Shown one piece after another: positions 6,104 through 62,412 of a stretch of 64,000 nt of DNA (within the stretch, counting starts at the first letter, position 1; each line of letters starts with the position of its first letter). The notes below the pieces were generated by a model. It ran no database searches and was not told the origin of the DNA. It worked only from the letters and a program-made list of their open reading frames with translations. A program made the position numbers and the translations under genes. The stretch is from Desulfofundulus kuznetsovii DSM 6115. Lineage in GTDB: Bacteria > Bacillota > Desulfotomaculia > Desulfotomaculales > Desulfovirgulaceae. The stretch spans positions 3,231,001 to 3,295,000 of the forward strand of contig NC_015573.1 in the NCBI RefSeq assembly GCF_000214705.1, given 5' to 3'.

Positions 6104-6421
6104 TCAGCATGACTTCGCCCGCCGAAGGAGAAAGGCAGCCATGATCAGCGAAAGAGCCAGTTGTCGAAAAACGCCACCATACCACCGCGACGGGACACTC
6201 CCACGGGGAGAGAAAGCGAGTGGTTGCACGTCCCCTGGCGGGCTGTACTTGCTCTGGTCCTGCACCACGAACCAGAAAGGGTGCCCCAGCCGCACCACGC
6301 GCGTTTTCTCCGGCCCCGTCCCCACCATCACCGGCAGGAAGAGCGTCGCCAGTACGATTCCGGCTGCGGCCACCAGTAAACTTAATACCAGCACCACCTT
6401 TTTCCCCCACAGCCTCAGCAC
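6104..6421 (-). CDS. Small two-span membrane protein
   Basis: A 105-residue protein with two hydrophobic segments, near residues 7-28 (VLVLSLLVAAAGIVLATLF) and near the C-terminus (LALSLIMAAFLL), separated by about 45 extracytoplasmic-looking residues. I start it at the GTG at 6421, which has GGAG seven bases upstream and overlaps the end of the PH-domain gene by seven bases, so the two are likely coupled. No family recognised. Confidence 0.5.
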   Translation of the reverse strand: MLRLWGKKVVLVLSLLVAAAGIVLATLFLPVMVGTGPEKTRVVRLGHPFWFVVQDQSKYSPPGDVQPLAFSPRGSVPSRWYGGVFRQLALSLIMAAFLLRRAKSC

Positions 6422-6915
6422 CTCCCTACTCCGGCAGTCTTCAGCTGCGGCCCCCACCCCCGGACGCGCCGGGCAGCACCACTAAGCCGCAGTGCCTCGC
6501 AGAACTTCTGCGGCTCCGCCGGGGAAAAAAGTACGGTTCCCGATCCATTTCCAGCACCACCATCTCGCCATCCCAGGACGTGGCGTAGACCCTGATCCAC
6601 CCCAGGCGCTCCACCCTGAACCGGCCGAAGTAGCCGAAAAGCCCCCCACGGCGGGTGGGAGCCCAGCCGGACGATGGCGAAAGGCGGACCGGCAAAACGC
6701 AGCGTCGTAACGTTCTTCACTTGCGCGTAAGGCACGAACACCGGGCGAACCAGACGCCTGGTGATCTTGAACCCCTGGGCGTCCAGGATGTAAGCCGCGG
6801 GCGTAAAGGCAAAGAAAACAGTCATCAGCAACACTGTCATCAGCACTATGCCGTACAGGACGACTAAGAAACCCGGCAGTTCAGCCGGGTCGGTTACGCC
6901 AACCGCTAAGCCCAC
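6415..6915 (-). pseudogene. Bacterial PH-domain-like membrane protein with two compensating frameshifts
   Basis: The N-terminal part has two hydrophobic stretches followed by a YdbT/bPH-like segment (YILDAQGFKITRRLVRPVF). At a G6 run (plus 6642-6647) the protein-like reading jumps to another frame (WIRVYATSWDGEMVVLEMD). At a T6/C4 run (plus 6525-6534) it returns to the first frame (FSPAEPQKFCEAL). Removing one G at the first run and adding one base at the second restores a single ~165-residue protein. Either this is a decayed gene or both indels are homopolymer sequencing errors. The start shown is a GTG with no good ribosome site. The N-terminal 28 residues are repeated at about 10.7 kb. Confidence 0.55.
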
Positions 6916-7071
6916 CAGGGAAAGGACGCCAAGGGGAATATAAGGGGAATATAATTAATAGCAAGAGGGCAATTCTGGCCTCCGGGGCGGCAGGCGCCAG
7001 GGCGAATTTCTTCTCCGCCCCCGGATGCAGCTTTTCTGATCCGGCCACAAGCATCTCTCTTTTCTTTTATC

Positions 7072-8677
7072 CTACACATTCTTTTCCGGGCAGCCTTTCC
7101 TTCCTCCCGCCAGCAACCTCACAAAAATCTCCACCAACTGCGGGTCAAACTGGCTCCCTGTACACTTCTTTAGCTCCTCCAGGGCCTCTTCGTGCGACAT
7201 TGCACCGCGGTAGGGGCGATCCGATGTCATCGCGTCGTAGGCGTCGACTATGGCCAGAATGCGGCTCAAGAGGTGGATCTGCTCTCCCTTCAATCCCAGG
7301 GGATAACCCCGCCCGTCCCACCGCTCGTGATGCTGGAGAATGTAAGGGGCCACCGGGGCCAGCTCGCCGGAGGAGAGAGCAATGCGGTATCCCACTTCGG
7401 AATGGCGCTGGATTTCTTCCCTTTCCTCTTCAGTCAGAGAACCGGGCTTGAAGAGGATGTGGTCCGGCACTCCCAGCTTGCCGATGTCGTGCATCTCCAC
7501 CAGGAGTCGCAGGCCGTCCATTTCTTCACGCGAGAGCCCCACCGCTTCCCCCAGCATGCAGGCGACTTCTTTCATGCGCTCCGTGTTGTGGAAATCCTTC
7601 TCCGCCAGGGCTGCCTTGAGGGCGCGGATCACCGCCGCCCGCGGGTCCTTCCCGCTGGCAAGCTTGTTCACGTACATTGCGTCGTCTGCTTCCTTGTAGA
7701 CTTCCCACAGCCGGCGCGAAGCATCTTTTGCCGTCGCCACACCCACGGAGATGCTCAAAGGGAGATCCGGATGCTGCATGTTGTCCTTTTCAACGGCCTC
7801 ATTTATGCGCTCTGCCACTTCTTCCGCCGTTTTCCGGTCTGTCTGGGGCAGGATTACAGCAAACTCGTCCCCCCCCAACCCGGGCCACCACGTCGGAACC
7901 CCGGACGCACCTCGCAATTACTTCGGCCGCACGGCGCAGGAGTTCGTCACCCTGCTCGTGCCCCAGCATGTCGTTGACCACTTTCAAGCCGTCCAGATCG
8001 CATAAAATGAGGCTGACAGGGAAAGAGCGTCCCCTGTCCAGCCGGCGCAGTTCTTCCTCGAAGAAAGCACGGTTGTACAGCCCGGTGAGGGCATCGCGGG
8101 TGCTGCAACGCCTAAGTTCATCCTCCATCTTTTTGCGTTCACCGATATCGCGGATACACTGGACTGCCCCTAAGAGGTTCCCCCTGTCGTCGTAAATTGG
8201 GGCCACGAGCGTCCAGAAGTAAAGCCCCCTGCCGCCGCGGGCGAAAGGAGCGAAACCTTCGCCGACAAGAATATGGCCCTTAAATTCGATTTTATCGTAC
8301 TGCTGTCCCCACTGTGTACCATTGCCGAGCAGGATGTTGGCGAGGATGGGTCTTTTCTCCCCGTAAAACGGGACTGCGTAAGCGTATTCGCCCCTGCCCA
8401 GTATTTCTTCTCTCTTAACCCCCGTCATTTCTTCCATGGCCCGGTTCCACACGAGCACCCTTCCTTCGCGGTCAATGGCAAGGGTGGCATCCGGGAGGGA
8501 GTCAATGATTCTTTCGAAGAGGTCCAGCTTTTCCACCAATTTTTCCGGCAGAAGTTTACTGCTGGCGCCGAGCAGGAGTTCAAGAAATTTTTTTGCCGCT
8601 TCGGCTTTTTCCTCTGGCAGAGCGTCCACCAACCGGTAAAGTTCGTCTTTTCCTCGACCCGGGTTCACGCAATCCAC
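7072..8677 (-). pseudogene. PAS-GGDEF-HD-GYP c-di-GMP protein, frameshifted at a G8 run
   Basis: Two overlapping frames together encode one ~530-residue protein: a short N-terminal helix region, a PAS domain (about 50-160), a GGDEF domain (about 170-340) and an HD-GYP phosphodiesterase domain (about 360-530) with MHDIGKLGVPD and HHERWDGRGYP. The break is exactly in the GGDEF signature: ARVG must run into GGDEFAVILP, but the run at plus 7869-7876 has eight G (minus strand) where seven keep the frame. The upstream frame alone gives a truncated PAS plus half GGDEF. The start is a GTG at 8677 with AAAAGGAG before it. The cause may be sequencing error, a true mutation, or slippage. Confidence 0.85.
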
Positions 8678-54122: not shown

Positions 54123-54262
54123 AGTAAATGTTCCCCATCACCTCCGTCTCGGTCCTTCCCGGCTCCAAGCGGCAAAACGTATTTGGTTTTAGAGGTACTC
54201 TTAATAAAAGGTATGGTTCCCGCGGGGATACCATCCCATGGATAAATTTTAACATACGCTCT
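54091..54262 (-). promoter_or_regulatory. Structured leader of the pan operon (candidate riboswitch/attenuator)
   Basis: Downstream of a plausible promoter on the minus strand (TTGTTG, 16 bases, TATGTT) lies a ~150-base leader ending in the terminator above. It contains a hairpin GGTATCCCCGCGGGAACCATACC and further short helices. A conserved RNA called the pan motif, with bulged adenines in a hairpin, is known upstream of pantothenate genes; whether this leader matches it was not verified. A 61-codon frame spans it but has no good ribosome site. Confidence 0.45.
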
Positions 54263-57701: not shown

Positions 57702-58003
57702 CCGGTTTCACCTCCTTCCGGAATGTTTTTTGAGCTTCGATGTATTTGCGGATAGTTTCGGCGCTTACATTACCGGCCGTACTAATGTAGCAGCCTCTAC
57801 TCCACATGCCGCTGCCCCAGAAGTATTTTTTCCTAAGGCCTTTCCATCTGGATGAGTGTGTATCCGTAAGTGTTGCAGATTTCTTGAATTGTCAGTTTTA
57901 CGGTGTCTTCCACCCTGCCGGTAATTACCTTATGCCGGTATTTTGGGCAAAACACGATATGGTAATTGATGTTATAGACGCAGTGGTTCATTTTTCCATT
58001 CAT
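57604..58003 (-). pseudogene. tnpA: IS200-type TnpA with internal deletion
   Basis: The N-terminus [20 protein letters not shown] to [10 protein letters not shown] is intact, then the frame stops, and in another phase the C-terminal part [16 protein letters not shown] … STAGNVSAETIRKYIEAQ follows directly. About 60 codons that should contain the HUH metal motif are deleted. The element therefore cannot move by itself. Confidence 0.85.
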
Positions 58004-58114
58004 AGCATGATTATAGCACTAGAACGGGTGTTTGTGAATACATTTGTCGCCCTGACGGGCGACGCCCCGCTCGATCCACGGGACAAGCCCGTGGGTTTTC
58101 AGGGGCGGATTCCT

Positions 58115-58873
58115 ATAAATGACCCGCATCAGTTCAATGCCATACCCGGCCACGGGGTAGAGGCTGAAATCGATGGTAGCAGAATCCTGCTCGGTACAAG
58201 AAAACTGATGAGGGAAAACAACATTAACGCAGCTGAAATAATGGCGGATGTGGAAAAACTCGAAGGAGAGGGCAAAACCGCCATGCTAATGGCGTTGGAC
58301 GGTAAAATGGTGGCCGTTATCGGGATAGCGGACACAATCAAGGAAAATGCGAAGGAGGCCATAACCCAGCTGAAAAAGATGGGCCTTGAAGTTTGGATGC
58401 TTACCGGGGACAACAGGCGTACCGCCGAAGCCATAGCGCGGCAGGTGGGGATAGAGAACGTGATGGCGGAAGTGCTTCCGGAAGACAAGGCAAACCAGGT
58501 TGAAAAGCTGCGCAGGCAGGGCAAGGTAGTCGGTATGGTGGGTGACGGCATAAACGATGCCCCGGCCCTGGTTACCGCTGATGTCGGTTTCGCCATAGGG
58601 ACGGTGACCGACGTGGCCATCGAAGCCGCAGATATTACCCTGATGCGGGGAGATTTGAGGGGAATCGTAACTGCCATCAGGCTCAGCCAGGCCACCATTA
58701 AAAACATTAAACAAAATCTTTTCTGGGCGTTAATTTATAACACCGTAGGCATCCCGTTTGCAGCGTTTGGCTTTCTCAACCCCGTTATCGCAGGGGCGGC
58801 CATGGCCTTCAGTTCGGTTTCGGTGGTTACTAACGCCCTAAGACTGCGGCGGTTCAACCCAAGGGTGGCGTAA
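58115..58873 (+). pseudogene. CopA-type P-ATPase remnant, right piece
   Basis: From [20 protein letters not shown] to the end, the nucleotide-binding and hinge parts of a copper ATPase: [41 protein letters not shown] and the last two membrane helices ([19 protein letters not shown]). The phosphorylation site DKTG and everything before it is missing. A frame reading in from the IS (from 57806) adds unrelated residues at the front. Not a working pump. Confidence 0.9.
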
Positions 58874-62027: not shown

Positions 62028-62261
62028 GAAGGAACAAACAGGGAGGGAGATAAGGGGGGGGAACGTAATAAGGGGAGATTTAATATTGATGCATTGTCTG
62101 TTAAATATAACAGCACCCGGGGTATTTTACAGGGATTACCCCCCCCCCCCGAACATATGTATTTAATACCAGAGCTTGTCCAGTCATAACAAAACCTCCA
62201 TGCTAAGAAATCCTTTGAGGACGCCAATATGAATGAAAAATTTAGTTCGGCCCGTCAAGCC

Positions 62262-62315: not shown

Positions 62316-62412
62316 CCTTGCAACCCAGCCGTCATGGTTACCTCAATGGGTAACTTTAGACCTGTGGCTTTGCGTCCCCGGCTTTTGCCGGGTTTGCCCA
62401 CCGGGATTTGAC
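62316..62412 (-). ncRNA. Cyclic-di-GMP-I (GEMM) riboswitch
   Basis: The minus strand reads CCCGGTGGGCAAACCCGGC-AAAA-GCCGGGGACGCAAAGCCACAGGTCTA…GAGGTAACC…GGCTGGGTTGC. GCAAACC, the GGGACGCAAAGCC junction, the GGTCTAA element and the closing arm are the hallmarks of the GEMM-I class. It precedes the truncated chemoreceptor and ends in the terminator above, so c-di-GMP probably controlled that receptor. Confidence 0.92.

Follow-up and report, generated by a model that had tools for sequence, protein, structure and literature searches.

Whether a gene whose reading frame is broken inside its own active-site motif has been lost, is switched on and off, is still read in both pieces or has simply been miscalled is the question raised by a PAS-GGDEF-HD-GYP gene of Desulfofundulus kuznetsovii DSM 6115, a thermophilic sulfate reducer. 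A minus-strand G8 run within the Gly-Gly-Asp codons of its GGDEF motif splits this single gene into two overlapping open reading frames (ORFs). The window, by which we mean the whole 64,000-nucleotide stretch that was analyzed, comprises bases 3,231,001–3,295,000 of the single-contig, 3,601,386 bp genome, the length also given for D. kuznetsovii 17T in a published report (PMC10907483). That report also names strain TPOSR of the species, which has a PacBio assembly (GCF_011393055.1) and an ANI of 97.6% to 17T. The features at the locus, in window coordinates, are:

7799–8677, minus strand: 5′ half of the gene, 292 aa, with PAS, the first half of GGDEF (profile positions 2–82) and an out-of-frame tail
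7072–7917, minus strand: 3′ half of the gene, 281 aa, with the second half of GGDEF (profile positions 79–157) and the HD-GYP domain (HD_5)
7869–7876, minus strand: G8 run (C8 on the plus strand), which disrupts the frame; the aligned orthologues have at most four consecutive Gs there
7892–7903, minus strand: RGSD, a candidate product-inhibition (I) site of the form RxxD, five residues N-terminal of GGDEF, as read from the sequence
6415–6960, minus strand, outer limits approximate: downstream neighbor, a pseudogene that differs by several lesions from open frames in the relatives G006 and G005

Both pieces matched GGDEF (PF00990) above the cut-off (81.1 and 48.2 bits, against 23.8), and neither reading frame held a complete GGDEF domain with its signature, because the gene is divided at the signature. 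RGSD was assigned as a candidate on the pattern RxxD, which we take to define the I-site motif. HD-GYP phosphodiesterases are recognized by the motifs HD and HHExxDGxGYP. The 3′ half matched PF13487 (HD_5) with 124.6 bits and retained the signature HD...HHERWDGRGYP; it has both the domain and the motifs of an HD-GYP phosphodiesterase, and c-di-GMP hydrolysis is its predicted activity. Its HD-GYP domain resembles that of the phosphodiesterase in PDB entries 4mcw, 4mdz and 4me4 (4mcw, E=1.5e-37 to the 3′ half, with the signature residues aligned), which we take to be PmGH of Persephonella marina, presumably a GAF-HD-GYP protein lacking GGDEF; unlike the window gene, that protein is not frame-broken.

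The run itself is no rarer than chance. The window contains seven overlapping G8 matches on both strands, which make up three distinct runs, and dinucleotide shuffles gave 14.7 on average; what is odd is the breakage of a gene with both halves well preserved. The run lies exactly in the signature because the codons for Gly-Gly-Asp (GGN GGN GAY) are inherently G-rich.

The best orthologues are single open frames (564 aa in G003, 567 aa in G005 and 568 aa in G006). At the site of the run, they read GTC GGT GGG GAC in G003, GTC GGC GGG GAC in G005 and GTT GGC GGG GAC in G006, and a contig end of G004 also reads GTC GGC GGG GAC. Among the 16 related loci examined, the longest stretch of G at the motif was five (L010, L012 and L013), and it was four in the nearest. 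Among named organisms, D. thermosubterraneus DSM 16057 (NZ_FQZM01000066.1) comes closest to the 3′ half, at 91% identity; like G003 and G006, it has the same gene as the window but as one open frame with no G run. In G003, Pfam finds PAS, GGDEF and HD-GYP in the same order as in the window gene. Three indels were present in the aligned genes: one base in the first codons, present in the window and G006 and missing from G003, G005 and G004; the G8 run; and an additional base near the stop, in G006 only. The run is therefore the sole indel that sets the window apart from all other aligned copies. G001 and G002 carry distant matches only (39 and 40% identity, respectively), and by this comparison the gene is dispensable in the genus and not universal. 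In G004, the orthologue is split over the ends of two contigs (L169 and L170), with a partial 5′ copy on a third; there is possibly an insertion or repeat at this place in that genome.

The two halves remain under constraint. Compared with G003, the window gene had a dN/dS of 0.239 over 263 codons of its 5′ half and of 0.144 over 265 codons of its 3′ half, and among the relatives the value ranged from 0.078 to 0.209. Because both halves are still constrained, the break is either recent or not real. Private changes numbered 18 non-synonymous and 18 synonymous in the window, as against 5 and 15 in G003 (Fisher P=0.09), a non-significant difference that may be at most a hint of relaxation. An earlier note on this DNA had described one G too many in a G8 run exactly inside the GGDEF signature of a PAS-GGDEF-HD-GYP gene with otherwise well preserved halves. 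All of this was confirmed by the overlap of the two ORFs across the run, the single open frames of orthologues that lack it, the Pfam domains in both halves and their dN/dS values.

We favor, at a confidence a little better than even, the view that a real and recent loss-of-function frameshift has inactivated the window copy of a PAS-GGDEF-HD-GYP c-di-GMP enzyme gene that relatives retain intact. In the lineage leading to D. kuznetsovii, the first Gly codon would have changed synonymously to GGG, giving rise to a long G run, and a one-base slippage would then have extended the run and destroyed the frame inside the active-site motif of the cyclase. The sequence as deposited encodes PAS and half a GGDEF domain in one protein and, separately, an HD-GYP fragment, if that is translated at all; the length of the run would be real in the organism, and no full-length protein would be made. 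Seen directly are the frame break, orthologues that are intact and lack the run, continued constraint in each half and a decayed gene downstream; a frame-breaking lesion together with intact orthologues is what marks a pseudogene. The locus shares one frame-breaking homopolymer indel, intact orthologues and a decaying neighbor with ordinary frameshift pseudogenes, and its sole difference from them, the position inside an active-site motif, is explained by the G-rich codons.

The downstream gene matched open frames of 200–256 aa in G006, G011, G005 and G002, and its ORF at 6415–6915 matched no Pfam family. In an alignment that took in the window, G006 and G005 and left out G011 and G002, the window copy had 13 extra nucleotides, including an 11-nt tandem repeat (6931–6952), a C6 run (6642–6647) one base longer, an A6 run (6525–6530) short of one base and a 3′ end that differed from that of both relatives. 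We call this gene a pseudogene because 13 extra nucleotides are not a homopolymer error. Its codon dN/dS (0.31 to G005 and 0.43 to G006) is near that of the relatives themselves (0.29 between G005 and G006), which suggests that its decay is also recent. That the GGDEF lesion is real is favored because the neighbor of the gene has decayed, the 13-nt change lying beyond any homopolymer miscall. However, two of the neighboring lesions are also one-base homopolymer differences, as expected of a poorly polished patch, and the constraint on both halves (0.24 and 0.14), with its non-significant relaxation, fits a miscall in an intact gene equally well. The neighbor thus cuts both ways, between local decay and a poorly polished patch, and we weighed it toward real decay.

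These same observations bear on sequencing or assembly error, that is, on a deposited run one base too long in a strain whose gene is intact. The change is a single base in a G homopolymer, both gene halves are constrained, and two more one-base homopolymer differences occur within about 1.4 kb, in the downstream gene; the 13-nt lesion, however, is not of the homopolymer type. The report on a sibling JGI genome, that of D. gibsoniae, argues in both directions, since the genome came from 454 plus Illumina data but was polished with Illumina data, its error rate being given as <1 in 100,000 (PMC4148979); that the D. kuznetsovii genome was made in the same way is our assumption.

Frame changes at G/C runs of at least 6 were sought in 760 kb of the genome, consisting of 35 stretches plus the window, a non-random sample picked around G8 runs from among 100 of 112 places. 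Nine changes were flagged: six at junctions (in L144, L146, L147 and L152, and two in L153), one near a gene end (L135), one unclassified (L140) and the window run, the only clear break. At runs of 8, eight kept the frame and two changed it, with 22 of 32 yielding no confident call; one of the two changes was a junction between two ORFs and the other was the window run. For runs of 7, no confident call was reached in 34 of 57, and the C6 run of the neighbor was missed, raising no flag. In addition, 211 of 475 G/C runs of at least 6 in the sampled fifth of the genome lay inside a single open frame that showed coding signal to either side of the run, a count that detects frame-keeping runs only and is blind to breaks. 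A genome full of homopolymer errors was rejected on these data, with six of the nine flagged changes being gene junctions and only the window's a clear break; the assembly is not generally riddled with such errors. L142 (17048–17107) has a T47 run followed directly by G13, which is biologically odd and possibly an assembly artefact.

The earlier note had rated error at least as likely as a slippage switch. We consider error the main rival, quite possible though less likely than a real loss; the downstream pseudogene and the 211 in-frame G/C runs tilt the evidence somewhat toward a real lesion.

Runs of eight guanines are prone to slippage, and a slippage switch that turns the enzyme on and off was one possibility offered in the earlier note. 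Under it, the locus would be a contingency locus at which the length of the run varies in the population and toggles the bifunctional enzyme. Besides the slippage-prone nature of G8, there are long G tracts of variable length at signaling genes in the genus, and one of these tracts precedes another PAS-GGDEF-HD-GYP gene (L162). The aligned orthologues, however, lack the run, which is short, intragenic and without the flanks of the long tracts. Neither a tract kept in the aligned orthologues nor, among 20 comparable GGDEF domains, a frame that varies at the site in other genomes was found.

Recurrence was surveyed in 113 genomes of the class by matching only a G run followed by AYGARTT, with frames judged by eye, which gave 4 matches for G8, 21 for G7 and 27 for G6. 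The G8 matches were an in-frame GGDEF domain (L171), an in-frame non-GGDEF sequence (L172), a sequence that looks non-coding (L173) and the window. For G7, 18 of the 21 were in-frame GGDEF domains, and L175, L186 and L189 were dropped as non-GGDEF. Thus, 20 of the 25 G7/G8 matches were GGDEF domains, 19 of which (18 G7 and one G8) were in frame, the window's alone being broken. No recognizable broken GGDEF domain was found by eye among the 27 G6 matches in the 113 genomes. A recurrent GGDEF switch was rejected on this count.

The likeness to the poly-G contingency loci of Campylobacter, Neisseria and Helicobacter is that the length of a G tract would set the reading frame; unlike those loci, the window run is short and unconserved and gave no sign of varying in length. 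We regard a contingency locus here as very improbable. The more specific idea, that a reversible slippage switch has newly arisen in this bifunctional c-di-GMP enzyme, in a genus whose chemotaxis and c-di-GMP genes already follow length-variable G tracts, appears slightly more remote still. The descriptive part of the earlier interpretation, a broken gene, holds, but its slippage switch is unsupported: the relatives lack the run, the other 19 G7/G8 GGDEF domains keep their frame, and the long G tracts of the genus are longer than the run and lie in different positions.

Both halves might instead be used, through ribosome or RNA polymerase slippage at the run or through a translation restart from which HD-GYP would emerge as a protein of its own. 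The HD-GYP signature is present in the 3′ ORF, which has a dN/dS of 0.14, and an in-frame ATG with AAAAGGA just upstream lies shortly past the stop of the 5′ ORF. This codon, however, is GTG in G003 and G005, GCG in G006 and ATG only in G004, and the shift site is absent from every aligned relative. Known +1 shifts are stimulated by a stop at the shift site, and the 5′ frame has no stop of that kind at the run. Programmed frameshifting or transcriptional slippage would call for a site conserved in the orthologues, and these showed one frame and no run. Use of both halves is accordingly hard to credit, and inactivation by a recent frameshift remains our preferred reading.

The long G tracts are a different class. 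The genome has 11 G tracts of at least 10 nt, up to 21 nt, and 8 of the 11, measuring 12–21 nt, lie ahead of a same-strand chemotaxis or c-di-GMP ORF. All 11 are listed here, these eight first:

668428: ahead of an MCP-signaling ORF
1039095 and 1039311: both ahead of one MCP-signaling ORF
2020255: ahead of an MCP-signaling ORF
window 62139–62150, minus strand: G12 tract ahead of an MCP-signaling ORF, with a riboswitch at 62316–62408
1050481: ahead of an HD_5 ORF
2897185: ahead of a PAS-GGDEF-HD_5 ORF
3543413: ahead of a GGDEF ORF
632488: near the 3′ end of a PocR-GAF-HD_5 gene
170876: ahead of an iron alcohol dehydrogenase
2436014: one of the three tracts outside the chemotaxis/c-di-GMP set

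Nine c-di-GMP-I riboswitches were found in the genome, and at three of them a long G tract lies about 120–220 nt downstream. Where leaders of the same gene were compared across sister species, the tract was retained but its length varied (G13, G14 and G13 in L276, L285 and L295; G14 and G10 in L286 and L289). TA followed 18 of 31 distinct tracts of the genome and its relatives, compared with 290 of 3662 control runs of 4–6 G, and matches of at least 7/8 to GAAC-N4-GTTC preceded 10 of 31 tracts, compared with 4 of 3662 controls; this motif was chosen after viewing the same tracts, some of which are orthologous, and the contrast is a lead and no test. We do not claim the motif as a LexA site, as an SOS-box pattern gave 6 matches against 17 in a reversed control. 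Literature searches on poly-G with riboswitch, chemotaxis or phase variation, or on Desulfotomaculum G tracts, returned nothing on such tracts among the matches listed. By their placement and varying length, the long tracts are candidate length-variable regulatory switches. The window GGDEF run, at 8 nt, intragenic, unconserved and without the GAAC-N4-GTTC or TA flanks, is outside this class.

Two other observations were made in the window. At 57806–58873 (plus strand), the C-terminal part of an ORF resembles, by eye, a metal-transporting P-type ATPase over the second half of that protein, and the start of the ORF looks unrelated; it is possibly a truncated gene. At 54140–54237 (minus strand), the Rfam pan motif RF01749 matched with 55.6 bits.

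The broken GGDEF gene is an ordinary case. Gly-Gly-Asp is a natural site for seven-G runs, which calls for caution, and a frame that breaks right at the active site therefore requires no special explanation. The long G tracts that precede chemotaxis and c-di-GMP genes are a more promising lead than the GGDEF run. The genome has 19 GGDEF matches at 18 places, two of the matches being the halves of the window gene, and if the length of the run is real, the strain is short of one among these 18.
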